Assembly: GCF_007829035.1 (NCBI RefSeq)
Contig: NZ_VIVQ01000001.1
Span: forward strand, 1,984,001 to 2,048,000
DNA: 64,000 bases
Direction of reading: 5' to 3'
Origin: Rudaeicoccus suwonensis
GTDB lineage: Bacteria; Actinomycetota; Actinomycetes; Actinomycetales; Dermatophilaceae
Position numbers and translations under genes: made by a program. The notes beneath the pieces are model-generated. The model made no database searches and was not told the DNA's origin. It was given only the letters and a program-made list of their open reading frames with translations. Numbering within the stretch: position 1 is the stretch's first letter; each line of letters opens with the position of its first letter. Below, piece by piece: positions 5,839-63,793 of the stretch.

Positions 5839-5988
5839 GATCGGCCCCCCGCACGTAACAGCACGCACGTGTAGATGCGGCGGGACGCCGTGTCTGGGAA
5901 GGATCGGCCCCGCACCTACAGCACGGACGTGTAGATGCGGCGGGACGCCGTGTCTGGGAAGGATCGGCCCCGCACCTACAGCACGACC
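5839..5988. repeat. 60-bp tandem repeat, about 2.5 copies
   Basis: The unit at 5881-5940 is repeated from 5941, and its right part also precedes it at 5839-5880 with small changes. The period is exactly 60 bp. It includes GTGTAGATGCGG and GGATCGGCCCC; no coding frame or spacer structure is apparent. Confidence 0.85.
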
Positions 5989-6536: not shown

Positions 6537-6575
6537 TGCTGCCCGGGAATCCCCTCTACGGGGTCCCAGGCAGCA
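6537..6575 (-). terminator. Hairpin after ctaF
   Basis: TGCTGCC at 6537-6543 pairs with GGCAGCA at 6569-6575, and the stem continues through CCCC/GGGG around a TCTA loop. It lies 22 bp beyond the ctaF stop and would end the ctaC-ctaD-ctaF transcript. Confidence 0.7.
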
Positions 6576-49560: not shown

Positions 49561-49590
49561 TGTGGAGAGGATGATGGCCGGGTTCGCTGT

Positions 49591-49599
49591 GCGTACCTG
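49591..49599 (+). repeat. GMGYACCTG motif, site 1 (GCGTACCTG)
   Basis: First of eight closely related 9-mers at gene boundaries of the transfer region. This one lies 50 nt before the ArdC-like start. Confidence 0.5.
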
Positions 49600-49649
49600 A
49601 CTCCCGATGTGCCGCCGGTTGGCGGCTGGTGCAGGTCGGGAGGTATGTG

Positions 49650-50753
49650 ATGGCAGCGCGCATGACGGCGGAGGAAGTTAGGGAGGCTCGTGAAGCGAAA
49701 CTGACCGAGCTGTCCGGGCGGCTGGAGGGCGCGGTCGGCCGGTTGGTGTCCGATGCCGATTGGGCGGCTGCGGTCCGGTTCGCGGCCAGGTTTCGGTCGC
49801 GGTCGTTCGCGAACACGCTGTTGATCTTCGCCCAGCATCAGGACGCTTTCGAGCAAGGGCGCGTCAGTGAGCCGTTCCCGTCGTATGTCGCGGGTTTTCA
49901 GCAATGGAAGAAGCTCGGCCGTCAGGTAGCCAAGGGCCAGTCGGGGTACATGATCTACGCCCCGGTGACCGCTCGGTTCGCGAGCACCAACCCGGCTGAT
50001 CCTGAGTCGTGGCGGCGGCTTGATCGTGGTGAGAAGCCGCGGCCGAGTGAAGTCGTGCGCTCGAAGATGGTCGGCGTCAAGCCCGCGTATGTGTGGGACG
50101 TGACCCAGACCAGCGGCGAGCCGATCCCCGAGCGCCCCCGGCCGGTGCTGCTGGCCGGTGAGGCACCGGCCGGGTTGTGGGAGGGTCTGGCCGCGCAGGT
50201 CCGCGAGCGCGGATTCGCTCTGGCGGATGCACCGGATGCGGTGGTGCTGGGCGGCGCGAACGGCGTGACGGACTTCCTCGCGCGCTCGGTGCAGGTGCGG
50301 GCGGATATGGATGACGCGGCCAGGGTCAAGACGTTGGCGCATGAGTTGGCGCATATCGAGTTGGGGCATGAGGATCGTCGCCCGGAGGGGTTGCATCGCG
50401 GGATCGGTGAGGTCGAGGCCGAGTCGGTCGCGCTGATGATCTGCGCGAGCTTCGGGCTCGACTCGACCGACTACACGGTCCCCTACGTTGCCGGGTGGTC
50501 CTCGCAGGTGGAGGGCAGCTCGCCGTTGGAGGTCATCCGCGCGACGGGCGAGCGGGCACGGACGACCGCGCTGGCAATCCTCGACGGGCTACCTGAGCCC
50601 ACGGTCGGGGACGGTGACCCTCCCGGCCTTGATCGCAGTAGCGGGGAGCGAGCGCGGGAGCGTTCGGGCACAGAGCGTGTCGCTTCGATCCGCGCCCGTC
50701 CAGCGGCTATGCCGGTAGAGGTTCGGGAGCCAGCGGCGGTGGTCGGATGGTGA
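49650..50753 (+). CDS. ArdC-like protein with zincin motif
   Basis: 367 residues from ATG 49650, with GGGAGG 6 nt before GTG-ATG. The N-terminal part resembles the ArdC ssDNA-binding domain (RSFANTLLIFAQ, GFQQWKKLGRQVAKGQSGY), and TLAHELAHIELGHE carries a HExxH metallopeptidase site. ArdC proteins of conjugative elements bind single-stranded DNA and can protect incoming DNA from restriction. Lead gene of the plus-strand transfer block; overlaps the next start. Confidence 0.88.
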   Translation: MAARMTAEEVREAREAKLTELSGRLEGAVGRLVSDADWAAAVRFAARFRSRSFANTLLIFAQHQDAFEQGRVSEPFPSYVAGFQQWKKLGRQVAKGQSGYMIYAPVTARFASTNPADPESWRRLDRGEKPRPSEVVRSKMVGVKPAYVWDVTQTSGEPIPERPRPVLLAGEAPAGLWEGLAAQVRERGFALADAPDAVVLGGANGVTDFLARSVQVRADMDDAARVKTLAHELAHIELGHEDRRPEGLHRGIGEVEAESVALMICASFGLDSTDYTVPYVAGWSSQVEGSSPLEVIRATGERARTTALAILDGLPEPTVGDGDPPGLDRSSGERARERSGTERVASIRARPAAMPVEVREPAAVVGW

Positions 50754-51634
50754 CCCCGCCCGTCATGAGCACGCCGGTCGATGCCCTGGCTGCGGCGGGC
50801 ACCTTGTCGCTGCCGGATGCCGCGATGGCGTACGCACGGGCGAGCATGGCGGTATTCCCGTGCGTGCCGGGTGAGAAGCGGCCATTGACCGAGCACGGTT
50901 TGACCGACGCGACCGCCGATCCGGCGCGGGTCGCGAGCTGGTGGCGGCGCTGGCCGCAGGCGAACATCGGCCTTGCGACCGGCCTGCCAGGCGGGTTCGA
51001 CGTGCTCGACATCGACGTGCATCCCAGCGGATCAGGGTTTCCGGCGCTACGCCGGGCACGGCAGGCCGGGCTCGTGGACGGCTGGGCGGTGCTGATCCAG
51101 TCCCCGTCCGGCGGGGTGCATCTCTACTTTGCCGTCGATCATGGGCGCGAGCAGCGGTCGTGGGCGCTGCCAAAGGCGCATGTGGATTTTCGCGGGGCGG
51201 GCGGGTATGTGATCGCCCCGCCTTCCTACGTTGTTGACGGGCATGGCGGTCGGCGGGGGTATCGGCTGGTTGCCACGGGCCGTGACCGGCAGCCCGTCGA
51301 GGCTGAGGAGCTGCGGCGTCTGCTGGACCCGCCGCGTCCGCGCCCGGCTCGGCGACCGGCGACGGCGTGGGATGGACGGTCTGGTGAGCGGCTGGGGACG
51401 TGGCTGGCCGCTCAGCCGGAGGGCAACCGCAACCGGGCGTTGTTCTGGGCGGCGTGCCGTCAGGCTGAGGCCGGGGTCCCCCAAGACGAAGCCCGGTTCG
51501 TGCTCGGGTCGGCTGCCGGGCGGACGGGGCTGGGTGAGCGCGAGATCGACGCCACCTTGGCGTCCGCCTATCGCACCACCGCTCGGCAGCGCGACGTGCC
51601 GACCGCGAGCATGGCGGGAGGGTTGGGCCGATGA
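50747..51634 (+). CDS. Primase-polymerase (AEP) N-terminal domain protein
   Basis: 295 residues from ATG 50747; ATG 50765 is an alternative. The prim-pol domain has LATGLPGGFDVLDIDVH with the catalytic acidic pair, SPSGGVHLYF with the nucleotide-binding His and a C-terminal helical part with GNRNRALFWAACRQAEAG. It may prime replication of the transferred strand or of the excised element. Overlaps both neighbours, the DUF2637 gene by 4 bp. Confidence 0.9.
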   Translation: MVTPPVMSTPVDALAAAGTLSLPDAAMAYARASMAVFPCVPGEKRPLTEHGLTDATADPARVASWWRRWPQANIGLATGLPGGFDVLDIDVHPSGSGFPALRRARQAGLVDGWAVLIQSPSGGVHLYFAVDHGREQRSWALPKAHVDFRGAGGYVIAPPSYVVDGHGGRRGYRLVATGRDRQPVEAEELRRLLDPPRPRPARRPATAWDGRSGERLGTWLAAQPEGNRNRALFWAACRQAEAGVPQDEARFVLGSAAGRTGLGEREIDATLASAYRTTARQRDVPTASMAGGLGR

Positions 51635-52383
51635 GTCCCACGGCATCGAGCGCGGCCGTGATCCTTCCGCGAGGCTCGGGCCGTTTGGTGCTGGGGGTCG
51701 CGGTCGCGGGCACGGTATTCATTGCGTTGGGCGCGTTCTGGCTGTCGTTCACGTCCCTGTCGACGCTGGCGCGTGACTGTGGGATTCCGGCGGATCGGGC
51801 GTGGATGTGGCCGTTGATCGTTGATGGCGTGATCGTCGTTGCCACCGTCTCGGTCGTCGCTGTGAGTGGCAGCGGCCAGGATCGCCACGCCGCGCGCTAC
51901 CCGTGGCTGCTGTTGTCGGCGGGGGCGGCGGTGTCGGTGCTGGCGAACGCCAGCCACGCGATCGTGACCGCCGACGCCAAGGTGCCGTCCGTGCTCGCCG
52001 CTCTCGTTGCCGCGGTTCCTCCGGTGGTGCTGGTCGCGATCACGCATCTGACGGTCGAGCTGACCCGCCACCCGGCCCCGCGTCCGAGAGCAACGGCTGG
52101 CGCGCCGTCTCATCCGGTACAGCGTCCCGCGCGGGCGACGAAGCCGACGGGCAGGGGTGATGAGGACGGTCGGGTTGGGGAGGCGTTGCGGCTACGGGCG
52201 GGCACGTCGTTGACGAACCGGGAGATCGCGGCGCGGCTCGGGGTGCATCCCTCGACGGTGGGCCGCTGGTTGAAGTCCCGCCCGGCGCGGATGCTGACGG
52301 CCCCGCCGGTAGCGCCCGCATTGGAGGCGGGCGCTGACGAGGCCGACGAGACGAGAAATGTGCAGGAAAGGAGACAACAATGA
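51631..52383 (+). CDS. DUF2637 membrane protein with C-terminal HTH
   Basis: 250 residues. Four hydrophobic segments (about 20-42, 62-82, 92-112, 120-140) make up DUF2637 (WLSFTSLSTLARDCGI, MWPLIVDGVIV), common on actinobacterial plasmids and ICEs and linked to intramycelial spread in Streptomyces. A Pro/Arg linker leads to a helix-turn-helix (TSLTNREIAARLGVHPSTV, GRWL) at about 190-215. A soluble DNA-binding tail on a membrane protein suggests anchoring of element DNA. Confidence 0.85.
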   Translation: MSPTASSAAVILPRGSGRLVLGVAVAGTVFIALGAFWLSFTSLSTLARDCGIPADRAWMWPLIVDGVIVVATVSVVAVSGSGQDRHAARYPWLLLSAGAAVSVLANASHAIVTADAKVPSVLAALVAAVPPVVLVAITHLTVELTRHPAPRPRATAGAPSHPVQRPARATKPTGRGDEDGRVGEALRLRAGTSLTNREIAARLGVHPSTVGRWLKSRPARMLTAPPVAPALEAGADEADETRNVQERRQQ

Positions 52384-52742
52384 GCACAGAACAGACCCGC
52401 CCCACAGATGGCGGGCACCGCAGCAAGCACGACGATCCGCAGGCCGATCGGACTGAATCGTTGCGACATCTGCTGGCGATCCACGATCCATCCAAGCGCA
52501 CCGCTGGCCGCGACCCGCGGACGGCGGCTGATGGGCATGGGGTGACGGTTCAGTGGGTGCGCCCGACCGACCTCGCCGCCCGCGTGGCAGCGAGGGCTTC
52601 CGCTGGGGCGGTCGCCGCGCACGTTGCGGCCCACCGTCAGGTGCGCGAGCACGTCCGAGCGCGGTTGGCTCCGCTGTCGGCGTTCGGACGGCAGACCGAG
52701 GGACAGGCCCCGGTCGCAGCCCGGTCGGTGATCGGCCATTGA
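52380..52742 (+). CDS. Hypothetical protein, 120 residues
   Basis: Starts at ATG 52380, overlapping the DUF2637 stop by 4 bp, with GAAAGGAG upstream. Hydrophilic; a charged N-half (HRSKHDDPQADRTESLRHLL) and an Ala/Arg-rich helical C-half (RVAARASAGAVAAHVAAHRQ). No known domain recognised. Coupling and Shine-Dalgarno support a real gene. Confidence 0.65.
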   Translation: MSTEQTRPTDGGHRSKHDDPQADRTESLRHLLAIHDPSKRTAGRDPRTAADGHGVTVQWVRPTDLAARVAARASAGAVAAHVAAHRQVREHVRARLAPLSAFGRQTEGQAPVAARSVIGH

Positions 52743-52861
52743 CCGTTCGTGCCCGCGTGCCCTGTGCTGCCGGATCGCGTGAGCTGCCCGGAGCGGTGTC
52801 GATGAGCTGATCCCTACGGGCGGACCCTTGCTGGTCTGCGGCGGTCCAGGTGGCACGGGAT

Positions 52862-52870
52862 GCGCACCTG
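52862..52870 (+). repeat. GMGYACCTG motif, site 2 (GCGCACCTG)
   Basis: Directly before ATG 52871. Confidence 0.5.
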
Positions 52871-53710
52871 ATGGTTGCCATGCCCATCCACCCGCCTTCG
52901 CACCCTGCTTCTTCTGAGCTGGCGTTCGCCAGCCCGGCAGGGTTGCGTGCGCTACTGGACCGGCTCAGCCAAGCCGGAGAGGGGGCATGGCAGACCGACC
53001 CCGAAGCGACCGCGCTGCTCGCGTACACGATCCAGAAGTACGAGCCACTGGCACGGAGCTGGCACCGCGACCCCGGCGAGGCCGCAACGGCGGCGTTCTT
53101 AGCGATGCGCCACAACGGCGTGCGCCACGCCGCCGATCCGTGGGCGGTCATCACCCGCGCCGTGCAGGTCAGCTTCTCGGCCGAGAGCCACGCCGAGCGG
53201 CATCTGACCTCGACCGAGAAAGCTCGCCGTAGCCAGCACGCCGAGCGCGACATCCCCTTGCGCACCGGGGAGCTGACCGACAACCTCACCGTTGAGGCAG
53301 CGACCCTCGGGTCGGGAACCGATCCCGGACCGGAGCCGGTGTTGGCCGATGCCGCCATGTTCCTGCGGCTGTTGGGCTGGCCGGAGTCGTTGGCGGGCAC
53401 GGCGGTCGAGTACATCGCCGCCCGCCTAGCGGATGCGGGCAGCATCCAGGCCGGGTACGAGACGCTGCGCCGGGACGTTGCGATGCGCGCTCAACTCGAT
53501 CTCGACCGCGCCGCCTGGGCCGGGCTGCTCGGGGTATTGCTCGGTTCCCGTCCGCAGCCCGGACGCCCGACCCGCAAGGGCGTGTTCGCACGGTTGCTGC
53601 TCGGTGAGAGCGTGCGGGACTTGCTCGATGACAACCGCCTCGTGCGAGCCACGCTCACCGCCCGCCCCTCGAACCGCGTCTCCCCGGCTGGGGGTGGTTG
53701 GGGTGAGTAG
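52871..53710 (+). CDS. Hypothetical protein, about 279 residues
   Basis: Start uncertain: GTG 52850, ATG 52871 or ATG 52880. Mostly helical and soluble; GEGAWQTDPEATALLAYTIQ, AATAAFLAMRHNGVRHAADP, SFSAESHAERHLTSTEKAR and a C-terminal RLLLGESVRDLLDDNRLVR. The layout recalls regulatory or replication-associated helical proteins of actinobacterial elements, but no family was recognised. The ParB-like gene overlaps its stop by 8 bp. Confidence 0.7.
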   Translation: MVAMPIHPPSHPASSELAFASPAGLRALLDRLSQAGEGAWQTDPEATALLAYTIQKYEPLARSWHRDPGEAATAAFLAMRHNGVRHAADPWAVITRAVQVSFSAESHAERHLTSTEKARRSQHAERDIPLRTGELTDNLTVEAATLGSGTDPGPEPVLADAAMFLRLLGWPESLAGTAVEYIAARLADAGSIQAGYETLRRDVAMRAQLDLDRAAWAGLLGVLLGSRPQPGRPTRKGVFARLLLGESVRDLLDDNRLVRATLTARPSNRVSPAGGGWGE

Positions 53711-54809
53711 CGGTGGTGTGGAGCTGGACCGCACGGTGGAGTCGATCCAAGTTGGGTACCGGGTCCGCCGCGATCTCGGTGACCTGACCGAGCTGTGCGC
53801 CTCGATCCACCAACTCGGCCTGTTGCAACCGATCACGATTACCCCGGACGGGACGCTGGTCTGCGGTGCCCGCCGCCTCGCCGCGGTCAGACAGCTCGGC
53901 TGGGGGCGCGTCAAGGTGTGGATCACGTCCACCGTGTCCTCCCGGTTGGCGGAGGTTCTGGCCGAGCAGCACGAGAACACGGCTCGCAAGCCGCTGACCC
54001 CGACCGAGGCCGCCGCGCTCTACACGGAGCTGAAGCGGCTCTACGCCGAGGACGCCGCCCGCCGCCAGCAAGCCACGCAGTTCACCGCGGACCGCAACCC
54101 GCGCCATCAGCCGGGAAGTGACGGTGGTGGCAAATTGCCACCACCGTCAAACCCGCCACCGGACAGTGAGGCCACGGTCGGCAAGGCACGCCAACAGGCG
54201 GCCAGAGCGATCACCGGCCGCGATTCATCACGATCGTTGGATCACGTCAGCGAAGTGCAACGCCTCGCTGATGATCCGGCCACCCCCAAGCAGGTGCGAG
54301 AGATTGCGCGCCGGGAGCTGGCAGGCATGGAGGCGGACGGCACGGTCTACGGCCACTACCTGACGGTCCGAGCCGCTGCCAGCACCGTCGCGCTCGGTCG
54401 CCTGGCCGACGACCCTGCCCAGCCGGAGATGGTGCGGGTGCTTGCCGCGGGCGAGTTGGACGGCCTGGACCTGGGCCAGCCGCCCGCGGAGCTGGTCAAG
54501 GCCGCGCAAGCGGCTATCGCCCGCGCCACCAACCCGAGCCCTGACGACGACAGCGAGGGGCTGCGGCTGGCGGCGGTCAAACACTACGGGCTACGCGCGT
54601 TCCTAACGACCGTGGATGAGATGGACGGCTGGTGGCGTCACTACGACCCTGCCGAGATCGCCGCCGGACTATCCGAGCAGCAATGGCAGCGGCTACGGGA
54701 CTGCCTGGACGGCAGCGTGGCGTTCATCGAGGCCATCGCAACCGCCCGCACCGCCGACCGAAGCGACGCGGGGGCCGAGGATCGACCACCGCGGGCAGCC
54801 ACCGACTGA
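53703..54809 (+). CDS. ParB-like nuclease/partition domain protein
   Basis: 368 residues from GTG 53703. ParB N-terminal domain: LCASIHQLGLLQPITITPDG, VCGARRLAAVRQLGW (the GxRR box that binds CTP in ParB) and LAEQHENTARKPLTPTE. A helical middle part and a long C-terminal region with repeated LADDPAxP segments follow. Probably DNA-binding, for stabilising or regulating the element. No ParA gene is near. Confidence 0.85.
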   Translation: MSSGGVELDRTVESIQVGYRVRRDLGDLTELCASIHQLGLLQPITITPDGTLVCGARRLAAVRQLGWGRVKVWITSTVSSRLAEVLAEQHENTARKPLTPTEAAALYTELKRLYAEDAARRQQATQFTADRNPRHQPGSDGGGKLPPPSNPPPDSEATVGKARQQAARAITGRDSSRSLDHVSEVQRLADDPATPKQVREIARRELAGMEADGTVYGHYLTVRAAASTVALGRLADDPAQPEMVRVLAAGELDGLDLGQPPAELVKAAQAAIARATNPSPDDDSEGLRLAAVKHYGLRAFLTTVDEMDGWWRHYDPAEIAAGLSEQQWQRLRDCLDGSVAFIEAIATARTADRSDAGAEDRPPRAATD

Positions 54810-54831
54810 AGCGGCACGTCGGGCGCGGGCC

Positions 54832-54840
54832 GCGCACCTG
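54832..54840 (+). repeat. GMGYACCTG motif, site 3 (GCGCACCTG)
   Basis: In the 73-bp gap after the ParB-like gene, 43 nt before the chosen GTG 54883. Confidence 0.45.
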
Positions 54841-54882
54841 AACGGCGACCTGTCCATTCGTGATCTGCCCTGGGAGCCTGTC

Positions 54883-55548
54883 GTGCCTGCTTCGCGTCGT
54901 CGTCTGATCGTTGTCCTCACCGTTGTCGGTGTCGTCGTATTGGCGACCGTCGGCGTCGGCGTCTACGGGCTCGTTCGTGGCCCGGCGCACCCAAACCACA
55001 CCACCACCCGGCACGGGGGATCGAGCCCATCGGGTACGCAGAACCCGTCAAGTGTGGCGGGTCCGGTCCCGGCAACGCTGCCCAAGACCGACAACCCTGT
55101 CGTCTACGCCAAGGCGGTCGCTTTCGCGTTGTTTGACTGGTCCACGATCACCGGGTACGCGCCGTCTGATTACACGGCCCCGGTGTTGGCGGACGCGGAC
55201 CCCTCCGGCGACGAAATCCCTGGTCTCGTCGGGGACGTAGCCAGCTACGAGCCGACCACCGATGAGTGGACGGAGCTGGCGACGATGAAGGTCATCGAGC
55301 ATCTGACGATCGCCAGCGCGACCGTGCCCTCGTTGTGGCCCGAAGCGCTGGCCGAGGCGCACGGACAGGTTCGGCCGGGCACGACCGCGATCACAATTAC
55401 CGGAACCCTGCACCGAACCGGCGTCTGGTACGGCCAACCGGCATCCACCACCGATCCGGTGAGCTTCACGATCTTTGAGGCGTGCAGCCCGGCATGGCCC
55501 GACTGCCACACCCTGCGCCTCTCACAACTCAACGATCCCCTCGGTTAG
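54883..55548 (+). CDS. Single-pass membrane protein, TcpC-like conjugation component
   Basis: About 221 residues from GTG 54883 (GGAG 7 nt upstream). A basic cytoplasmic start (ASRRR), a membrane helix at about 8-32, a Thr/Ser/Pro-rich linker and an extracellular alpha/beta domain with SLWPEALAEAHGQVRPG and TITGTLHRTGVWYG. This is the layout of TcpC/VirB8-like proteins of Gram-positive secretion systems; the assignment is from layout and position. The frame continues upstream through site 3 (HLNGDLSIRDLPWEP), which may also be coding from an unseen start. Confidence 0.65.
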   Translation: MPASRRRLIVVLTVVGVVVLATVGVGVYGLVRGPAHPNHTTTRHGGSSPSGTQNPSSVAGPVPATLPKTDNPVVYAKAVAFALFDWSTITGYAPSDYTAPVLADADPSGDEIPGLVGDVASYEPTTDEWTELATMKVIEHLTIASATVPSLWPEALAEAHGQVRPGTTAITITGTLHRTGVWYGQPASTTDPVSFTIFEACSPAWPDCHTLRLSQLNDPLG

Positions 55549-55564
55549 CGGGACGGGGTTGGTG

Positions 55565-56713
55565 ATGGTCCGCAAGGTGCTGATCGGCCTGGTGGTCGCG
55601 GTGGTGTTCCTCGGCCCCGGCATCGGCCTGACCGCGTTGGCCGGGATGTTCGATCCGGCGACGACCGACGCCGCCACCTGCGCCACAACTACCGACGCGG
55701 GCGGGTTGTCGGGGCCGTCAATGCCGGTCAGCGGCACCGTGCCCCAGAGCCTCACGGCCACGACCGCTGACGGGCAGACCGTGACGCTCGATCACACACA
55801 GCTTGTGCGGGCGGCGACGATCATCGCGGTCGGCAACAGCGAGAACATCCCCGCCAACGGCCAGGTGATCGCGCTGATGGCCGCGCTCACCGAGTCCACC
55901 CTGCGCGTCCTCGCCAACACCACCGTCTACCCGCAGTCCGCGAACTACCCCAACGATGGCGACGGCGACAATGACGCTTCGCTGGGGTTGTTTCAGATGC
56001 AGCCGCCGGACGGATGGGGAACGGTGGCGGAGTTGATGGACCCGGTGTGGTCCAGCCGCGCGTTCTACGGCGGGCCGGACGGCCCCAACCACGGCTCCCC
56101 GGCCGGGCTATTGGACATCCCCAACTGGCAATCGCTCTCGCTCGGGGCGGCAGCGCAAGCAGTCGAGGTCTCGCAGTACCCCACGAGATATGCGAACTAT
56201 CAGCCGGTCGCGGAGAAGATCGCCAGCACCCTCACCGGCGTGACCCTCACCGGCAGCCAGTGCATCACGGGCACCACCGGGAACCTCCCGCCAGGGTTCG
56301 CCGGAGCGTTCATCGCCGCCGCCGAGAAAGAGATCGGGCTGCCGTATGTGTGGGGTGGCGGAACCTACACCGGCCCCTCCGGCGAGGCAGCGGACGGCCA
56401 GCCGGGATTCGACTGCTCCGGGCTGGTCATGTACGCCGCCTACCAAGCCTCCAACGGCAAAGTCCGGCTGTTGCATTACACCGGCGATCAAATCAACGAA
56501 ACCCAACCCGTCACTTGGGCCGATAAGCAGCCGGGCGACATCATCTTCTACACGTATCCCGGTGCCAGCGTCCCGCACCACGTCGTCATTTACCTCGGTG
56601 GGGATCGCATCCTCCAAGCGCCGGAGACGGGGCAGAACGTCGGCTACGGCACCCTCTCGATGTTCACCGGCCAGACGGCCACGGTTCGCCGGATCGCCGA
56701 ACCGTCGTCCTGA
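55565..56713 (+). CDS. Exported NlpC/P60 cell-wall hydrolase (VirB1-like)
   Basis: 382 residues from ATG 55565. N-terminal signal/anchor helix at about 5-27; a lytic-transglycosylase-like region (MAALTESTLRV, ASLGLFQMQPPDGWG) at about 90-225; NlpC/P60 domain at 245-380 with Cys284 in FDCSGLVMYA and a His in VPHHVVIYLGG. It opens peptidoglycan for assembly of the transfer channel. Close behind the TcpC-like gene (16 bp). Confidence 0.93.
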   Translation: MVRKVLIGLVVAVVFLGPGIGLTALAGMFDPATTDAATCATTTDAGGLSGPSMPVSGTVPQSLTATTADGQTVTLDHTQLVRAATIIAVGNSENIPANGQVIALMAALTESTLRVLANTTVYPQSANYPNDGDGDNDASLGLFQMQPPDGWGTVAELMDPVWSSRAFYGGPDGPNHGSPAGLLDIPNWQSLSLGAAAQAVEVSQYPTRYANYQPVAEKIASTLTGVTLTGSQCITGTTGNLPPGFAGAFIAAAEKEIGLPYVWGGGTYTGPSGEAADGQPGFDCSGLVMYAAYQASNGKVRLLHYTGDQINETQPVTWADKQPGDIIFYTYPGASVPHHVVIYLGGDRILQAPETGQNVGYGTLSMFTGQTATVRRIAEPSS

Positions 56714-56733
56714 CTGGCGCGCCGGTTGGGGTC

Positions 56734-56742
56734 GCGCACCTG
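56734..56742 (+). repeat. GMGYACCTG motif, site 4 (GCGCACCTG)
   Basis: Six nt before GTG 56749 of the first DUF6112-type gene; followed by CGGAGTG. Confidence 0.5.
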
Positions 56743-56748
56743 CGGAGT

Positions 56749-57066
56749 GTGAACTTCCTATCTCCACTCCACCGCCCTGTCACGTTCGTCATCGCTGGTG
56801 TTGGCGTGTATCCGAACTTCAACGGTGTCGGCGGCGCGGGCCAGCTCGACACAGTGATTGGCGCGTTGATGACGATTGTGCTGATCGTCGCTGTGCTGAT
56901 GATCGTCGTGTGTGCTGCGGCGTGGGCGCTGGCCTCCGCGCACGGTAACTATCAGGCCGCCACCAAGGCCCGCACCGGGCTACTCGTCGCCGTTGGTGCG
57001 GCCGCCCTAGATGGTGGCGGGATCGCGTGGATGAACTTCCTGCTCGGGATCGGCCCCAACCTGTAG
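56749..57066 (+). CDS. DUF6112-type two-helix membrane protein, copy 1
   Basis: 105 residues from GTG 56749. Two hydrophobic helices at about 37-62 and 76-95, with NFNGVGGAGQLDTVIGALM before the first. It is a paralogue of the next gene. Size, two helices and position next to VirB6- and VirB4-like genes resemble VirB2-type pilin subunits; that role is inferred. Confidence 0.75.
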   Translation: MNFLSPLHRPVTFVIAGVGVYPNFNGVGGAGQLDTVIGALMTIVLIVAVLMIVVCAAAWALASAHGNYQAATKARTGLLVAVGAAALDGGGIAWMNFLLGIGPNL

Positions 57067-57111
57067 CCGTTCGACCGGCGGCGGGGTCGAACCGTTGCCG
57101 TGGCGTGGCGG

Positions 57112-57120
57112 GAGCACCTG
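57112..57120 (+). repeat. GMGYACCTG motif, site 5 (GAGCACCTG)
   Basis: Followed by CGGGGTGAACCCCG, itself a small palindrome; 78 nt before ATG 57199. Confidence 0.5.
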
Positions 57121-57198
57121 CGGGGTGAACCCCGCCACTTCGCACCGGCTGATTGTTGTCGGTGGTGTGCGGGTCCGTGCTGCGAGGGAGCCCGCCCA

Positions 57199-57540
57199 AT
57201 GATCTCTGTCCTTACCTCTTTCACCACCGGCTTGACCGGCTCGTTCGGCCGCTCCGGCTTACTGCTGGCCGATGTGAATATCTCTCCGAACTCCAACGGT
57301 CTGCCCGGCATCAGTGCGTTGCAGACGATCGTTGGGGCGGTCATGACCGTGGGGCTGATCCTCTCGGTCCTGGCGCTGATCGTCGCCGCGGTCGCATGGG
57401 CGTTCGGGTCACACTCCGCCAACCCGCACCTTGCTACGCGCGGTAAGACGGGGGTGTTGATCGCCTGTGGTGCCGCGATTCTCTGTGGTGGGGCGGTCGC
57501 GTTCATCAATTTCTTCTGGCACGTCGGCCAGGGCATCTGA
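57199..57540 (+). CDS. DUF6112-type two-helix membrane protein, copy 2
   Basis: 113 residues from ATG 57199, preceded by GAGGGA. NSNGLPGISALQTIVGAVM aligns with copy 1, as do both helices (about 45-70, 85-105) and the GKTGVLIACGAA segment. An N-terminal hydrophobic stretch (SGLLLADVNIS) may be a signal. Probably a structural membrane component of the secretion system. The VirB6-like gene begins 13 bp later. Confidence 0.8.
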   Translation: MISVLTSFTTGLTGSFGRSGLLLADVNISPNSNGLPGISALQTIVGAVMTVGLILSVLALIVAAVAWAFGSHSANPHLATRGKTGVLIACGAAILCGGAVAFINFFWHVGQGI

Positions 57541-57553
57541 GGGGCGCGCCGCG

Positions 57554-59071
57554 ATGGGTGTCTGCTCTATCCCGGTCATCTCGACCGTCTGCCACGTCGC
57601 GGGCAAGGCCGCCGCGACCGTCGTATCGGCTCCGTTCGACTGGATCGCTGAGGGCGTCGGTAACGCCGCCAAGTGGATGTTTCAGGGGGTCTGGCAGCTC
57701 TTTGACTCCACGACCTTGGTGGATGTCACCGACCCGAATTATCTGCGGGTGTATGACGTGCTGTTTGGCGTCGCGATCTTTCTGATGCTGTTGTTCTTCT
57801 GCTTGCAGCTCATCACTGGCCTGATCCACCGCGATCCCGGCGCGTTGCACCGGGCGGGGATCGGGTTGGCGAAATCGGTCCTCGGCTCGTTCCTCGTGGT
57901 GACCATCACGGGGTTGGCGTTGGAGATCACCGACGAGCTGTGCGTCGGGATCATCCAGGCCACGGGGAACACGCTGTCTGAGATGGGCGGCAAGATCGCC
58001 GCCCTCGCCGCCGGGATCGGAGCGATCAGCGTCTCCGCACCGGGGGCGGGGGTCATCATCATCATCTTCCTCGGCTGTTTGGCGATCACCGGGGCAGCGA
58101 TCGTGTGGTTCTCGCTGTTGATCCGCAAGGCCCTGTTGCTCGTCGCCGTGGTTCTTGCCCCGGTGGCGTTGTCGGGGCAGTCGTGGGATCACGCCCGCGG
58201 GTGGTTCTCGAAGTGGGCGTCGTTTGTGGTCGCGCTGATCGTGAGCAAGTTGGTGGTGGTCGTGATCTTCCTCGTCGCGATCAACCAAATGAACGCGCCC
58301 TTGAACTTGGGGCTGTCCTCGATCGCTAACCCGGTCGCCGGGATCGTGCTCATGTTCGTGGCCGCGTTCGCGCCGTACATGGCCTACAAGTTCATCTCCT
58401 TCATCGGCTTCGACCTCTACCACTCGATGTCCGCCGAGTCGGAGGCGAAGGGGGCGATGAACCGGCCCATCCCTGTTCCCGCGATGGCTCGGCTCGGCGC
58501 GGCCCGCAAGGTCCTCGGCGGTGGCTCCGGCGGCGACAGCGGCAACGGTGGCGGTGACAAGAGCGGCGGCGATGATGACGGGCCACCACCCCCACCGCCC
58601 GGCGGCGGTGGTAACCCGGTCGCAGGCGGGGGCACCGGCAAGGACGCGGAGGGTCAAGGTGCTCAGACGGGTGCCGAAGGGGCGGAGGCCGGGCCGGAGG
58701 GCATGGCTTTGGTCGCGGGAGCGCAGGCGGTCACCGGGGCGGCGAAGGCCGGGCCGCAGGCCGGGAAGGCGGTTGCCCGTGCTGCTGAGCAACACGTGGA
58801 CGCCAGCCAGGACGCCGGTCACCCCGCGACTGACTCGCCAGAGAACCAGTCGAGCCGGTCGGGTGCTGTCCCCACCCCGCCAGCATCAGCCACGCCGCAG
58901 CCAGATAACCCGGCTCCACCGACGACGAGTACTCCGTCGGCGGAGCCGCCGATGTCGGTTCCGCTGACCCCGACAGAACCGAATGCACCGGCCCCCAGCC
59001 AACAGCGGCCAGCACCGCCCCCCACGACACCATCGCGACCGGGGTCGGGGTCGAGTGAGGGAGAGGCGTGA
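57554..59071 (+). CDS. VirB6/TrbL-like polytopic channel protein
   Basis: 505 residues from ATG 57554. Six to seven hydrophobic segments lie between about 70 and 300 (VLFGVAIFLMLLFFCLQLI, IIIIFLGCLAITGAAIVWFS, LLVAVVLAPVALSG). The last 200 residues are low-complexity: Gly/Asp stretches, PPPPPPGGGG, then Ala/Pro-rich. This fits the central membrane channel protein of conjugative type IV systems with a disordered cytoplasmic tail. Its TGA overlaps the next ATG by one base. Confidence 0.82.
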   Translation: MGVCSIPVISTVCHVAGKAAATVVSAPFDWIAEGVGNAAKWMFQGVWQLFDSTTLVDVTDPNYLRVYDVLFGVAIFLMLLFFCLQLITGLIHRDPGALHRAGIGLAKSVLGSFLVVTITGLALEITDELCVGIIQATGNTLSEMGGKIAALAAGIGAISVSAPGAGVIIIIFLGCLAITGAAIVWFSLLIRKALLLVAVVLAPVALSGQSWDHARGWFSKWASFVVALIVSKLVVVVIFLVAINQMNAPLNLGLSSIANPVAGIVLMFVAAFAPYMAYKFISFIGFDLYHSMSAESEAKGAMNRPIPVPAMARLGAARKVLGGGSGGDSGNGGGDKSGGDDDGPPPPPPGGGGNPVAGGGTGKDAEGQGAQTGAEGAEAGPEGMALVAGAQAVTGAAKAGPQAGKAVARAAEQHVDASQDAGHPATDSPENQSSRSGAVPTPPASATPQPDNPAPPTTSTPSAEPPMSVPLTPTEPNAPAPSQQRPAPPPTTPSRPGSGSSEGEA

Positions 59072-60528
59072 TGGCCGATAACACCAACCCCGACCGTGGG
59101 CTCGGGCCGGTCAAGTTCTCCCGCCTCGCCCGCCGTGGACTCTTGCTCGGCCTCTCGTTGCCGCAGGTGATCGTCCTCGGCGTCGGCGCGGTCGCGATCA
59201 TCGCCGCGCTCTACACCGCAGGCGGCAAGGGACTGCTGTTCGTGTTCCCCGTGATCGGCGTCTGCGCGCTGCTGGTCTGGGTGCCGGTCGCCGGTCACAA
59301 GCTGATCGAGTGGGTACCGCTGGCCGGACACTGGACGGTCCGGGCGCTGCTTGGACAAACGGTGTATCGGCGTAGGGTGACAAAGCCGCGCCCGGCGGGG
59401 ACGCTCGCGCTCCCCGGCGACGCGGCAGCGCTGCGCCAGTACCTCGATCCCGATACCGGGGTTGTCATGGTCCACGACCCCCACCGGGCAACGTTGACGG
59501 CGCTGGTCGAGGTCACGCATCCGAGCTTCATCCTGTTGGACCCTGGCGAGCAGCAACGTCGCGTCGCCGCCTGGGGCCGCGCGCTCTCCACGGTGTGCCG
59601 CTCCGGGCGGATCGCCCGCCTCCAAGTCCTTGAGCGGACGGTCCCCGATAGCGGTACGGGTTTGGAGCAATGGTGGGCCACCCACGGCAGCGACGACGGT
59701 TCCTGGGTCGCCCGGACCTACCGGGAGTTGATCGAGCGGGCCGGGCCGACCGCCGAACGGCACGTCACCACCCTCTCGTTGTCGCTGGACATGAAGGCGG
59801 CAGCGCGGGCGATCCGATCGGCCGGGCACGGGATGCGCGGTGCCGCCGCGGTCCTGCGCGCGGAGATGCGAACCCTCACCACCGCCCTTCGCGCCGCCGA
59901 CCTGACCCCCGGTGAGTGGTACACCCCCGGCCAGCTCGCCGTCCTGCTGCGCTCCGCCTATGACCCCGCGGTCGCCGCCACCTTGGAGCGCAGCGAACTG
60001 GGTCGTGACCTCGCCACCGCCGGGCCGGTCGCGGTCGAGGAAACGTGGGACCGGCTCCGCTCAGACTCCGCCTACCACGCCGTGCTGTGGGTAAGTGAGT
60101 GGCCGCGGTCGCAGGTGTACCCCGGCTTCCTCGCCCCGATCCTGCTGTCATCCGGTGTGAGGCGCGCGTTCACGTTGCTGTGCGACCCGGTGCGCTCCGA
60201 TCAAGCGGCCAGGGATATTCGCAAGAAAAAGACGGGCTACCTGTCGGACGCGACCCAACGCGCTCGGATCGGGCAGATCGAGGACGCCGAGCAGACCGCC
60301 GAGTACCGCGACGTGCTCCAACAAGAGGCCGATCTGATCGCCGGTCACGGCGTACTCAGGTACATCGGCCTCATCGCGATCTCCGCACCGACGACAGATG
60401 AGCTGGACGCGGCCGTGGCTGCGATCGAGCAGGCCGCGATCCAAGCCTCCTGCGAGACCCGCCACCTCGTCGGCCAGCAAGCCCAAGCGTTCACCGCCGC
60501 CGCCCTGCCGCTCTGCCGAGGACTCTGA
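59071..60528 (+). CDS. SCO6880-family secretion protein
   Basis: 485 residues from ATG 59071, with GAGGGAGAGG upstream. Two membrane helices near 30-75 are followed by a large soluble part (GTLALPGDAAALRQYLDPDT, AWGRALSTVCRSGRIARLQV). It matches the SCO6880 family of actinobacterial conjugation loci, in which the PrgI-like and VirB4 N-terminal-like parts are on one protein and the ATPase on another. No Walker motifs are present, in line with this split. Confidence 0.83.
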   Translation: MADNTNPDRGLGPVKFSRLARRGLLLGLSLPQVIVLGVGAVAIIAALYTAGGKGLLFVFPVIGVCALLVWVPVAGHKLIEWVPLAGHWTVRALLGQTVYRRRVTKPRPAGTLALPGDAAALRQYLDPDTGVVMVHDPHRATLTALVEVTHPSFILLDPGEQQRRVAAWGRALSTVCRSGRIARLQVLERTVPDSGTGLEQWWATHGSDDGSWVARTYRELIERAGPTAERHVTTLSLSLDMKAAARAIRSAGHGMRGAAAVLRAEMRTLTTALRAADLTPGEWYTPGQLAVLLRSAYDPAVAATLERSELGRDLATAGPVAVEETWDRLRSDSAYHAVLWVSEWPRSQVYPGFLAPILLSSGVRRAFTLLCDPVRSDQAARDIRKKKTGYLSDATQRARIGQIEDAEQTAEYRDVLQQEADLIAGHGVLRYIGLIAISAPTTDELDAAVAAIEQAAIQASCETRHLVGQQAQAFTAAALPLCRGL

Positions 60529-60578
60529 AATTGCTGGGCTTGGCCCCTGTGCCCGTTGTTGGGTGCCGGGGCTGTGGC

Positions 60579-60587
60579 GCGTACCTG
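60579..60587 (+). repeat. GMGYACCTG motif, site 6 (GCGTACCTG)
   Basis: Followed by CGGGGTGATC; 35 nt before ATG 60623. Confidence 0.5.
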
Positions 60588-60622
60588 CGGGGTGATCGAC
60601 CCTCGCGTGGATGGAGTGAGTG

Positions 60623-61072
60623 ATGGCTTTCAGTAACCCGGCAGTTGAGGCGACTGAGGCGGCGCGGGCGTTGCGGTTGTTGGCGCGTGAGACTCGCACG
60701 ATCGAGTCTCCGACGCACGTGTACCAGACGCTCGGGGCGCTGTCGGAGGCGTTGTACGCGCTGGGGGAATCGCTGGATCAGCTCGCGGACTGGCACGAAC
60801 GCAATGTCGAGCACGCCATGAATGACGACGGTGACCGTACCGCTGGGCGGCAAGACGCGACCGCAGCGGCGCTGCTGTTGCGTGACGCGGCGACCCTAGC
60901 CCGGAGGGTGAAGGGGCCGTTGCGTGAAGCGTTCGCTCACAACGGCCGCATCGCGTGGAGCCCAGACCACATCGAGGCAGCCGAACGCAACCGCGCCCGA
61001 CCGCTACCCCCGGCGTCCATGTTCGGACGCAACTCAGCACCGATGCCTCAGAACGGCTCCCTCGGCCGCTGA
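60623..61072 (+). CDS. Hypothetical helical protein, 149 residues
   Basis: From ATG 60623. Soluble and strongly helical: ATEAARALRLLARETRTIES, VYQTLGALSEALYALGESLD, TAAALLLRDAATLARRVKG. Likely coiled-coil forming; no enzyme motif. Similar small proteins are found between SCO6880- and VirB4-like genes in related elements, suggesting an accessory role in the secretion apparatus. Confidence 0.7.
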   Translation: MAFSNPAVEATEAARALRLLARETRTIESPTHVYQTLGALSEALYALGESLDQLADWHERNVEHAMNDDGDRTAGRQDATAAALLLRDAATLARRVKGPLREAFAHNGRIAWSPDHIEAAERNRARPLPPASMFGRNSAPMPQNGSLGR

Positions 61073-61111
61073 TCCTCCCGCAGCTCCCGGTCCTTGGCCG
61101 GGGGTTGTCGG

Positions 61112-61120
61112 GCGCACCTG
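61112..61120 (+). repeat. GMGYACCTG motif, site 7 (GCGCACCTG)
   Basis: 44 nt before the VirB4-like ATG 61165. Confidence 0.5.
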
Positions 61121-61164
61121 ATCGGCAGACACCTGTTCTGCCGTGAAAAAGGAGTGCTGGCCGT

Positions 61165-62658
61165 ATGGGCTCACGCGAGAAGAAGTTGTATTCGACGGTG
61201 CTGGTCGGCCGCTCCGGGCAGCACCGCCGCGACCGCCGGGCGGCGCGGCGTGCCGCCTCCCGCGCTTACGCGCAGGACGCCGCCGAGCGCAAAGCCCAAG
61301 CGAAGGCCGAGGCGGAAGCTGAGAAGGCTGAGCGGGCAGCGGTCACGTACCTGCCGCGTAGTGGGGAGCCGGACCGAGCGGCGTTGCGGGCGTGGCGACG
61401 GTTCCGGCTCCCCGCCCACCAAGACACCTCAGCCACCCTCGCCGGGGCCTACCCGTTCTTGGCCGAGGGTGGCCTGGGTGGCGAGGGCGTGTTCGTCGGC
61501 CAAGACCTCTACTCCGGCGGCTCGTTCGTCTTCGACCCCTGGGTCCTCTACCAGCGCGGGGTTATCACCGCCCCCAATGTGGTCCTCGCCGGGATCGTCG
61601 GGGCCGGTAAGTCCGCTCTGGCGAAGGCGCTCTACACCCGCTCCATCCCATTCGGGAGGCGCGTCTATGTCCCCGGTGACCCGAAGGGTGAGCACACCCC
61701 GGTCGCGAAGGCGGTCGGTGGGCAGGCGATCGTGCTCGGCCACGGCCTCTCCAACCGCCTCAACCCCTTAGACGCGGGACGCCGACCCTCCGGGGTCTCG
61801 GATGTGGAGTGGGCTTCGATGGTCACGGCCCGCCGCCGCGATCTCATCGGCGCGCTCACCGAAACGGTGTTGGGAAGGCCGCTGTCGCCGGTCGAGCACA
61901 CCGCCGTAGACATCGCCCTCAACGCCGCAGTCAGTTCGTCGGAGACGCCGATCCTGCCGATGGTCGTGGACCGCATCCTCAACCCCGACACGTCCTCCGA
62001 TCCTCGCTTGGCGGAGGACGGGCGGATCGTCGGCCACGCCCTCCGCCGCCTCGTCGCCGGCGACCTCGCCGGCATCTTCGACGGCCCCTCCACGGTGGCG
62101 TTCGACCCCGACCTCCCAATGGTCTCCCTGGACCTGTCGCGGGTGGCGGAGAACAACGCCCTGATCTCCGTGCTGATGACCTGCGCCTCCGCCTGGATGG
62201 AGTCAGCGCTACTGGACCCGAACGGCGGACAGCGCTGGGTCGTCTACGACGAGGCATGGCAACTCATGCAACACCCCGCGCTGCTCAGACGGATGGACGC
62301 TCACTGGCGGCTCGCCCGATACCTGGGGATCGCGAACATGCTGATCTTCCACAAGCTCACCGACCTGGACAACGTGGGCGACCAAGGCACCGCCGCCCAC
62401 GCCCTCGCATCCTCGCTGTTGGCGAACGCGGAGACCAGGATCATCTACCGCCAAGAGTCCGACCAGCTCGGCGCGACCTCGGCCATGCTCAACCTGACCG
62501 GCACCGAACAACGGATGCTCCCGCAACTCGGGACCGGGCAAGGACTCTGGCGCATCAAAGACCGCAGCTTTGTCGTGCAGCACCAGCTCCACCCGGACGA
62601 GCTGACCATCTTCGACACCACGGCCAGAATGCGCGAGATTACGCGGGTGACACCATGA
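61165..62658 (+). CDS. VirB4-type secretion ATPase
   Basis: 497 residues from ATG 61165. After a basic coiled N-terminus (RRDRRAARRAASRAYAQD) comes the ATPase: Walker A GIVGAGKSAL (143-152), GDPKGEHTPVAKAVGG, Walker B RWVVYDEAWQLM near 355, and HKLTDLDNVGD. It powers assembly or substrate transfer of the type IV system. It is shorter than full VirB4 (about 800 residues) because the N-domain is apparently supplied by the SCO6880-type protein. Stop overlaps the next start by 4 bp. Confidence 0.93.
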   Translation: MGSREKKLYSTVLVGRSGQHRRDRRAARRAASRAYAQDAAERKAQAKAEAEAEKAERAAVTYLPRSGEPDRAALRAWRRFRLPAHQDTSATLAGAYPFLAEGGLGGEGVFVGQDLYSGGSFVFDPWVLYQRGVITAPNVVLAGIVGAGKSALAKALYTRSIPFGRRVYVPGDPKGEHTPVAKAVGGQAIVLGHGLSNRLNPLDAGRRPSGVSDVEWASMVTARRRDLIGALTETVLGRPLSPVEHTAVDIALNAAVSSSETPILPMVVDRILNPDTSSDPRLAEDGRIVGHALRRLVAGDLAGIFDGPSTVAFDPDLPMVSLDLSRVAENNALISVLMTCASAWMESALLDPNGGQRWVVYDEAWQLMQHPALLRRMDAHWRLARYLGIANMLIFHKLTDLDNVGDQGTAAHALASSLLANAETRIIYRQESDQLGATSAMLNLTGTEQRMLPQLGTGQGLWRIKDRSFVVQHQLHPDELTIFDTTARMREITRVTP

Positions 62659-63125
62659 GCGGTCCGGTGCGGTCGTGGGATTTGCCGGTCGTGCGCGCCC
62701 TCGACGCGGTAGAGCAACTACCCGGCTTCCGACCCGATCAGATCGAGTGGGACTCCTTCCAGCTTCACCGCACCGGGCGGGGTGAGCAGATGGAGGCCGT
62801 GTCGATCTACGCCTACCCGACCGGCTCAGAGCACGGTTTCGTGCGGTTCGGGGTGACCGATGGCGAGTTCACCGTCACCGACCCTGAGCGCCGCCGGATG
62901 ACCGCCAGCGATGTGGCGGTTGCGCTCAATGTGCCAACCATGAGCGCGGAGAAAGCGATCACCGCAGTCATACCGGCGCTGGCGACGGCGCTGTCACGGT
63001 TCAACGCCGCACACGCACCACACGCTGCCGCGCGAGCGGTGAATGCCGGGCAGGGGCCGGTCGGTTCGTATAACTGCCACAGCGGTCTGTCGGATCAGCC
63101 ACAGCAACCTGGCATCGGCCTGTAA
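62655..63125 (+). CDS. Hypothetical protein, 156 residues
   Basis: From ATG 62655, coupled to the VirB4-like gene (ATGA overlap). Starts SGPVRSWDLPVVRALDAVEQ, with a mixed alpha/beta middle (SIYAYPTGSEHGFVRFGVTD) and an Ala/His-rich C-terminus (RFNAAHAPHAAARAVNAG). No domain recognised; coupling supports a real gene working with the secretion ATPase. Confidence 0.68.
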   Translation: MSGPVRSWDLPVVRALDAVEQLPGFRPDQIEWDSFQLHRTGRGEQMEAVSIYAYPTGSEHGFVRFGVTDGEFTVTDPERRRMTASDVAVALNVPTMSAEKAITAVIPALATALSRFNAAHAPHAAARAVNAGQGPVGSYNCHSGLSDQPQQPGIGL

Positions 63126-63179
63126 CTGCCGGGTCCGAAGCTGCCGCGCGGCGCTTCTTGTTGACGGTTGGAGGGTGAC

Positions 63180-63188
63180 GAGCACCTA
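63180..63188 (+). repeat. GMGYACCTG motif, site 8 (variant GAGCACCTA)
   Basis: The most diverged copy, followed by CGGGTGTG; 5 nt before GTG 63194. Confidence 0.4.
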
Positions 63189-63193
63189 CGGGT

Positions 63194-63793
63194 GTGACAT
63201 CAACACCTGACACGGGCGGCAGCGACGGCACGGTGACGCGCGTCCATCATGGTGCGACTAACACCAGCGTCGATGAGTTCCCGGCCGTGACGGTGCCGGT
63301 GGTGCTCCCGCAAGCAGTCGTCACCGTCGATGACAGCGGCCATGCCCGGATCACGGTCGAGAACACCGGCCACCGCACGATCGACTGCCCGGACGAACCG
63401 ATCGGCCGTGACGAGCTGGGCAAGGCGCTCGCTGTCATAGCGGAGCAGGTCGCCGGGCCGATCCGAGTTGAGGTCCGCGAGCCCGACGGGTCGCGTTACG
63501 CCGACATCCTCCAACCCCACCCGCCGCAACCGAGCGCCGCAACCGCGCCAGACGACGACGCTGAAGGTGACGGGCGGTGGGTGTCGGGCGAGGGGTTCCT
63601 GCCCGGTGAGACCGTGCTGGTCGCCGTGGTCGCCACGACGATCCGTGCCGACCAGGACGGGACCGCTGGCCTCGATACCCCGCCGAAGCTGCCACGGCAG
63701 GGCAGTGAAGTGGTGCTGTTCGGGTCCGCGTCGGGAACGACCGTCCGCGTCACCCTTCCACCCCGACCGACCCGCCGGTGGTGGCGGCGATGA
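63194..63793 (+). CDS. Hypothetical protein, 199 residues
   Basis: From GTG 63194. Beta-rich and acidic in the middle: PVVLPQAVVTVDDSGHARIT, RIEVREPDG-type strands (IRVEVREPDGSRYADIL), a disordered PHPPQPSAATAPDDDAEGD linker and a last domain with GEGFLPGETVLVAVVATTI. Ends in a very basic RRWWRR. Its stop overlaps the coupling-protein ATG. No family recognised. Confidence 0.68.
   Translation: MTSTPDTGGSDGTVTRVHHGATNTSVDEFPAVTVPVVLPQAVVTVDDSGHARITVENTGHRTIDCPDEPIGRDELGKALAVIAEQVAGPIRVEVREPDGSRYADILQPHPPQPSAATAPDDDAEGDGRWVSGEGFLPGETVLVAVVATTIRADQDGTAGLDTPPKLPRQGSEVVLFGSASGTTVRVTLPPRPTRRWWRR

Follow-up and report, generated by a model that had tools for sequence, protein, structure and literature searches.

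A candidate private promoter motif and its possible sigma-like reader in an integrated conjugative element of Rudaeicoccus suwonensis

Gene content of the element and positions of the motif

The window, that is, the whole stretch of 64,000 nucleotides of Rudaeicoccus suwonensis DNA that was analysed, carries genes of an integrated conjugative element. A TrwC relaxase/helicase gene (42248–45817; PF08751, E 1.8e-91; AAA_30, E 2.2e-57) lies on the minus strand, ahead of a row of plus-strand genes. From 49.6 kb, this row consists of genes for an ArdC-domain protein (49650–50753, PF08401), a primase/polymerase, a DUF2637 protein, g4, g5 (52880–53710), a ParB-like protein, g7, an NlpC/P60 protein and two DUF6112 proteins (56749–57066 and 57199–57540, PF19607). 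They are followed by a weakly TrbL-like gene, a gene with a weak EccE match, g13 and a VirB4-like ATPase gene (61165–62658, plus strand; AAA_10 at E 9.5e-4, below the Pfam cut-off). Just beyond the window, genes for a VirD4-type coupling protein, an SSB-like protein and a serine recombinase were found. The latter, a large serine recombinase with Resolvase and Recombinase domains (L218 4944–6437, about 66944–68437 in window numbering, minus strand), is possibly the integrase of the element and lies near its right end. The two DUF6112 genes are adjacent, each with a putative promoter site of its own, and one of them is also weakly TrbC/VirB2-like. The DUF2637 protein (51631–52383) has a helix-turn-helix, is encoded two genes before g5 and is a possible co-regulator.

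The original prediction held that a 9-bp motif, GMGYACCTG, recurs at eight gene boundaries of this region. All eight sites were found on the plus strand where they had been placed. Each of the eight gaps of more than 20 bases between the genes at 49.4–63.2 kb holds a site inside it or at its edge, and the overlapping genes of this segment lack the motif, as had been claimed. Seven of the sites fit a longer motif, described below together with the scoring matrix, whose scores are given here. These candidate promoter sites, with coordinates running from GG to YR, lie upstream of the ArdC-domain gene (49581–49606, score 16.9), at the very start of g5 (52852–52877, 19.3), before the gene 54883–55548 (54822–54847, 18.6, with a leader of about 36 nt containing GGGAG), at the first DUF6112 gene (56724–56749, 16.5), before the second one (57102–57127, 16.9), before the gene 60623–61072 (60569–60594, 18.1) and before the VirB4-like ATPase gene (61102–61127), where the score of 21.9 is the best in the window. 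At the first DUF6112 gene, a GTG stands exactly at +13, i.e., 13 bases after the G of GYACCT. The eighth site, predicted at 63180 (63170–63195, plus strand, before the gene 63194–63793), scored 8.2 and is weak, degenerate or doubtful; homologues of this gene in some relatives (e.g., L077 and L093) have sites with ATG at +13.

All eight listed sites are on the plus strand; the list missed another one, at 45830 on the opposite strand (45817–45842, score 18.2), which stands before the TrwC-type relaxase gene and has GTG at +13. Two more sites were located past the end of the window: one at 65584 (plus strand, 17.7) precedes the SSB-like gene, and at the other, 68450 (minus strand, 14.0), an ATG at +13 opens the 498-residue serine recombinase. 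The window holds 15 copies of the bare 9-mer, where 3.66 would be expected (the maximum among 100 shuffles was 7), and 8 of these 15 copies are outside the original list. When CGG is added to the 9-mer, the genome has 17 matches, of which 3 belong to the listed sites. The 9-bp core is real; the full motif is longer and also serves minus-strand genes.

The longer motif, its specificity and its conservation

A set of 80 related loci was gathered by a scan with the VirB4-like protein; by record title they are actinobacterial, except for L092, a metagenome-assembled genome titled Chthonomonadales. Among viral contigs, 190 stretches matched a peptide pattern and none encoded a relative; of 499 plasmid records with a match, 498 had less than 60% identity. 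In 519 upstream stretches of 140 bases, GCACCT had 132 copies where 40.1 were expected (56 loci) and CACCTG 117 where 35.6 were (54 loci), which ranks them second and third among all 6-mers upstream of homologues; the expectation reflects the composition of the loci as a whole, and some of the copies sit in conserved coding stretches. From sites in these loci, leaving aside the window and its two nearest kin, a longer motif with fixed spacing was learned, GG-N8-GC-GYACCT-G-N-C-N-GG-YR.

For the logo, 152 sites were collected, of which 124 were kept after removal of near-duplicates, including 8 from the window. Curation accepted GYACCT only within 110 bases upstream or 20 bases downstream of the inferred start of a homologue, omitted the genes g2, g3, g6, g8, g11, g12 and g15, and took out by pattern the matches in recognisable coding motifs. 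GYACCT (positions 0–5) was fixed by the selection of the sites, and only the columns around it count as evidence. They show GG at −12 and −11 (72% and 69% G), GC at −2 and −1 (75% and 71%), G at 6, C at 8, G at 10, G/T at 11, Y at 12 and R at 13, all at fixed spacing. A test matrix was trained without the sites of the window and of its two nearest kin, L018 and L019. On both strands of the window, its eight best matches were 61114, 52864, 54834, 45830 (minus), 60581, 49593, 57114 and 56736, with scores from 16.5 to 21.9, and the ninth reached 14.5 at 6573. In the reversed window there were 11 matches of at least 9 against 34 in the real one, with one reversed match at 16.9. A pair of near-identical stretches around GCACCTACAGCACG was also seen at 5912 and 5972 (plus strand), 60 bases apart.

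A whole-genome scan for specificity had been proposed with the original motif. Whereas the bare 9-mer is not specific alone, the longer matrix at a score of at least 16 gave 9 sites in the element (26.35 kb, with bounds chosen by us) and 3 in a chromosome sample of 400 kb, which makes it about 45 times denser in the element; at a score of at least 14, the counts were 10 and 18. The sample consisted of twenty stretches over contig 1 outside the element. A strict IUPAC pattern, picked after the sites had been seen, matched 17 times genome-wide (4 read backwards), with 5 matches in the element (binomial P 9e-8). Matches of at least 13 in the 80 loci numbered 240 in the orientation of the VirB4-like gene and 33 in the other, with 44 in reversed controls (both strands); these counts take in the training sites of the matrix. 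Loci from a further genome set had 23 matches of at least 14 over 93 kb and another 12 over 75 kb, and none in either reversed control; this set overlaps the training loci in at least two genomes (G227 = G786 and G413 = G756 by g5 coordinates). The kind of sequence that gives rise to false positives is illustrated by a matrix match at L030 16317 (minus), which resembles a tRNA-Ala gene.

Recurrence was also found between related elements, as had been suggested: six of the window sites recur in L019 in homologous gaps, with diverged flanks. Together, these data bear on the simplest explanation, that the motif is a product of chance and codon bias, CACCTG being frequent in GC-rich coding DNA. 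A loose pattern is indeed frequent in chromosomes; it matched 39 of 39 whole genomes and did not separate those with g5 from those without it, and conserved coding stretches account for some of the excess of the 6-mers. However, given the density of the full matrix in the element and its recurrence at homologous gaps of relatives, this explanation is scarcely credible. The view that the motif is a shared regulatory element of a regulon within the element is supported.

Geometry of the sites and the nature of the signal

At a score of at least 14, 178 distinct matches were found in the 80 loci, which take in the training sites; 159 of them have the orientation of the VirB4-like gene and 19 the reverse one. 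At +13, long ORFs opened with ATG in 16 cases and with GTG in 4. At any other offset up to 25, ATG occurred at most 3 times, and among the later offsets the highest count was 12, at +60. GTG at +11 was seen in 10 cases, which are partly forced by the motif itself. For 105 of the 178 matches, a start preceded by a ribosome-binding-site (RBS)-like sequence was found 24–89 bases downstream; this count is permissive, as it accepts any of six 5-mers in the 12 bases before any long-ORF ATG or GTG and has no control. The remaining matches had another start within 90 bases (32) or none (21).

The fixed distance to leaderless starts in some genes, along with leaders in others, is consistent with transcription that begins at one set base, R13, with YR at −1/+1. 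Of the features of such a promoter, the preferred orientation was found in the 178 matches and the fixed distance to leaderless starts in a subset of them. The same geometry fits neither a translation signal nor an operator. The motif resembles a promoter at which transcription starts at a fixed base, in some cases without a leader. In this numbering, the layout would be GG at about −25/−24, GC at −15/−14, GYACCTG from −13 to −7 and YR at −1/+1, and transcription would begin 13 bases after the G of GYACCT. Where the start codon falls on that base, the gene would be leaderless; other genes would receive a leader. Among the functions offered in the original prediction, the promoter part is supported by the orientation, the start codons fixed at +13 in a subset, the RBS-like leaders in many others and the lack of covariation described below; the operator, RNA processing and translation signal are disfavoured.

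An operator laid over ordinary promoters, on which a ParB-like, AraC-type or XRE repressor or activator of the element would act, could account for the repetition of the motif at many gene fronts. Nevertheless, the motif is not palindromic, has mostly one orientation relative to the gene and, in a subset of sites, keeps a fixed distance to the start codon, so that we regard an operator as quite improbable. The other possibility concerns RNA, namely a leader hairpin, a processing site or a site hiding the RBS. In 32 of 124 single-site folds the motif is placed at the tip of a hairpin, and in relatives the ACCT ahead of g5 is able to base-pair with the RBS AGGAGGT. On the other hand, base-pair covariation did not exceed chance in 1304 column pairs (z spread 0.85, largest value 2.96), no Rfam match at E ≤ 1 was obtained in 45.8–64.0 kb, and some genes have their start codon directly at the site; an RNA element is therefore very improbable. 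A conserved stem-loop, which the neat single-site hairpins had suggested, was dropped because pairing between the columns was at chance level. At a few sites, an upstream ORF or leader peptide running through the motif is visible by eye.

The g5 protein as a candidate reader of the motif

The protein g5 had no Pfam or NCBIfam match. The protein work began at ATG 52871, which would precede the proposed transcription start. An alignment of 20 g5 members revealed a shared core around AFxAM...DPWAVVTRAV. The AlphaFold2 model (pLDDT 83, pTM 0.49) is confident over residues 21–110 and 151–270 (block means 84–97), and the relative placement of these two domains is not confident. From the model, g5 is predicted to consist of a sigma region 2-like N-terminal domain and a C-terminal helical domain.

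The N-terminal domain model was compared with 287 PDB chains, those ranked highest by Foldseek. Each of the eight rows with Z of at least 5 (Z 5.5–8.9) was either a sigma factor or chain F of an initiation complex. They comprise SigH (under the label 'RPSH', which we take to mean SigH), SigI1, sigmaE twice, sigma32, sigmaS, CnrH and chain F of a Mycobacterium tuberculosis complex. The alignments included, for example, 82 residues at 3.3 Å for CnrH and 81 residues at 3.0 Å for 9m9e_F; the rmsd of the sigma rows ranged from 3.0 to 24.2 Å and was large in some (9.0, 7.1 and 24.2 Å), and unrelated rows began at Z 4.9. Middling Z values are common for helical proteins; what carries weight is that a single family occupies the top rows. 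Foldseek alone gave no g5 match at E ≤ 0.001. In hhalign comparisons with host sigma factors, g5 aligned over the expected region with P of 0.65, 0.32 and 0.14, which are not significant (controls: 0.47 for the C-terminal domain and 0.46 for the reversed alignment). None of the 20 members matched a Pfam sigma family at E ≤ 1, and the four PDB sequence matches at E ≤ 5 did not include a sigma factor. The C-terminal domain modelled alone (pLDDT 90, pTM 0.81) had the NAB2 N-terminal domain as its best match (Z 6.0); its match lists held no convincing fold match and no sigma4 domain, although such a domain may be present all the same. Accordingly, g5 is not filed as a member of the sigma70 family, although it may work like one.

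The distribution of g5 was compared with that of the motif. The gene was found in 41 of the 49 genomes that lie behind 50 of the 80 loci and, across the class as a whole, in 20 of 394 genomes, the one studied here included. The eight genomes without g5 were those of L026, L030, L034, L063, L066, L069, L085 and L091. Loci without g5 had fewer sites (a mean of 2.1 against 4.2 matches of at least 13, P 0.006), and five of the eight (L026, L030, L063, L066 and L069) keep a match of at least 16, one of the L030 matches being tRNA-like. Possibly, the g5 copies of such genomes were lost or unassembled, or another reader exists.

Of 50 g5 domains located, 36 were left after removal of near-duplicate and incomplete ones. 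A site of at least 13 was present within 330 bases upstream of 21 of these 36 distinct genes and absent upstream of the other 15, while the reversed and reverse-complement controls gave 0 of 36 each. The genomes of training loci contributed 19 of the 36 genes (14 reach 13), and those of the class-wide survey contributed 17 (7 reach 13). Between two types of g5, the motif differs in 10 of 32 columns (p < 0.05, uncorrected), most strongly at −1, 1, 7 and 13, which is in line with co-evolution and also with plain relatedness.

The promoter could also be used by a host sigma factor together with an activator encoded by the element, e.g., the DUF2637/helix-turn-helix protein or g5 itself. Such a scheme would accord with GYACCTG at the presumed place of a −10 element, with the helix-turn-helix of the DUF2637 protein and with the 8 of 49 genomes that have a VirB4 locus and no detectable g5. 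Housekeeping promoters, however, carry TANNNT, which the motif does not have, and the predicted sigma2-like fold of g5 suits a sigma role better; we consider the host factor rather unlikely. On the whole, it is probable, if not strongly so, that the motif is a private promoter core of the integrated conjugative element and that g5 is most likely its sigma-like reader. As such, g5 is a better candidate than the ParB-like, AraC-type and XRE proteins proposed for binding tests in the original prediction, which are not favoured.

We suggest the following scheme for the control of transfer. The sigma2-like domain of g5 would read the −10-like GYACCTG, and its other domain may read the GG. At a low level, g5 would initiate transcription from the site in front of its own gene and so increase its amount, providing a self-reinforcing switch for transfer. 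Then g5 would open together the putative promoters before the genes for the relaxase, the VirB4-like ATPase of the channel, the pilin-like DUF6112 proteins and the anti-restriction protein ArdC, as well as, beyond the window, those before the SSB-like protein and the serine recombinase; this order of events is likewise conjectural. The broader proposal, to which we give about even credence, is that a sigma2-like domain joined to an unmatched domain represents a new class of initiation factor, which uses a compact GG-N10-GYACCTG promoter without a −35 element to drive the whole transfer programme (relaxase, secretion channel, recombinase and itself) of a family of conjugative elements found in many Actinobacteria.

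Several known systems are comparable. The −24/−12 promoters of sigma54 have GG and G(C/T) twelve bases apart and a start 12 bases past the second element, and they resemble the putative g5 promoters in spacing only. Actinobacteria are not known to have RpoN, and this likeness is likely a coincidence. SetCD of SXT/R391 are activators and differ from g5 in not being sigma-like. The likeness lies in a regulator that is carried on the element and commands its transfer genes (PMC4344509). Closest in kind are SigN and T4 gp55. SigN (ZpdN) of the Bacillus subtilis plasmid pBS32 is an experimentally shown sigma factor on a mobile element, and it shares with g5, as proposed here, a weak sigma homology, a regulon on its own element and a self-activated promoter (PMC6751061). 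SigN promoters are described with both −35 and −10 regions, and pBS32 carries a cryptic prophage-like element (PMC6751061); the putative g5 promoters have GG at −25/−24 and no conserved −35. Unlike SigN, g5 has no significant sigma homology in sequence and is known here from its sequence and predicted model. T4 gp55 is a far-diverged member of the sigma70 family that has a sigma2 homology domain, and T4 late promoters have a −10-like element and no conserved −35, which resembles what is proposed for g5; T4, however, uses gp33 and the sliding clamp gp45 (PMC7892883), while g5 has another C-terminal domain. The g5 sites also differ in keeping GG at −25/−24.

In the consulted passages of a review on conjugation in Gram-positive bacteria, the term 'sigma factor' comes up two times, with phrI of ICEBs1 and in a reference (PMC6540685). 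In a survey of actinobacterial elements, the regulators described are of the Pra, KorSA, XRE, GntR and WhiB types, and 'sigma', in the 12 of 14 places consulted, is only the name of a supplier (PMC3218068). Titles and abstract openings of the open-access literature brought up neither a paper about a sigma factor of these elements nor a description of what turns on their transfer genes. Conjugative elements with a secretion channel of this kind occur in many actinobacterial genera. If the proposal is true, the regulon would be predictable from sequence in any genome, one protein could switch transfer on or off, and the initiation factors that mobile elements carry would gain a new class.

In many relatives (e.g., L166, L180 and L191), the ACCT of the g5 site can pair with an AGGAGG(T/C) RBS about 10 bases later, which is possibly a second layer of control on g5. 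Several genomes contain more than one g5 match (5 each in G761 and G777), some of which may be fragments, and several related elements may coexist and cross-talk.
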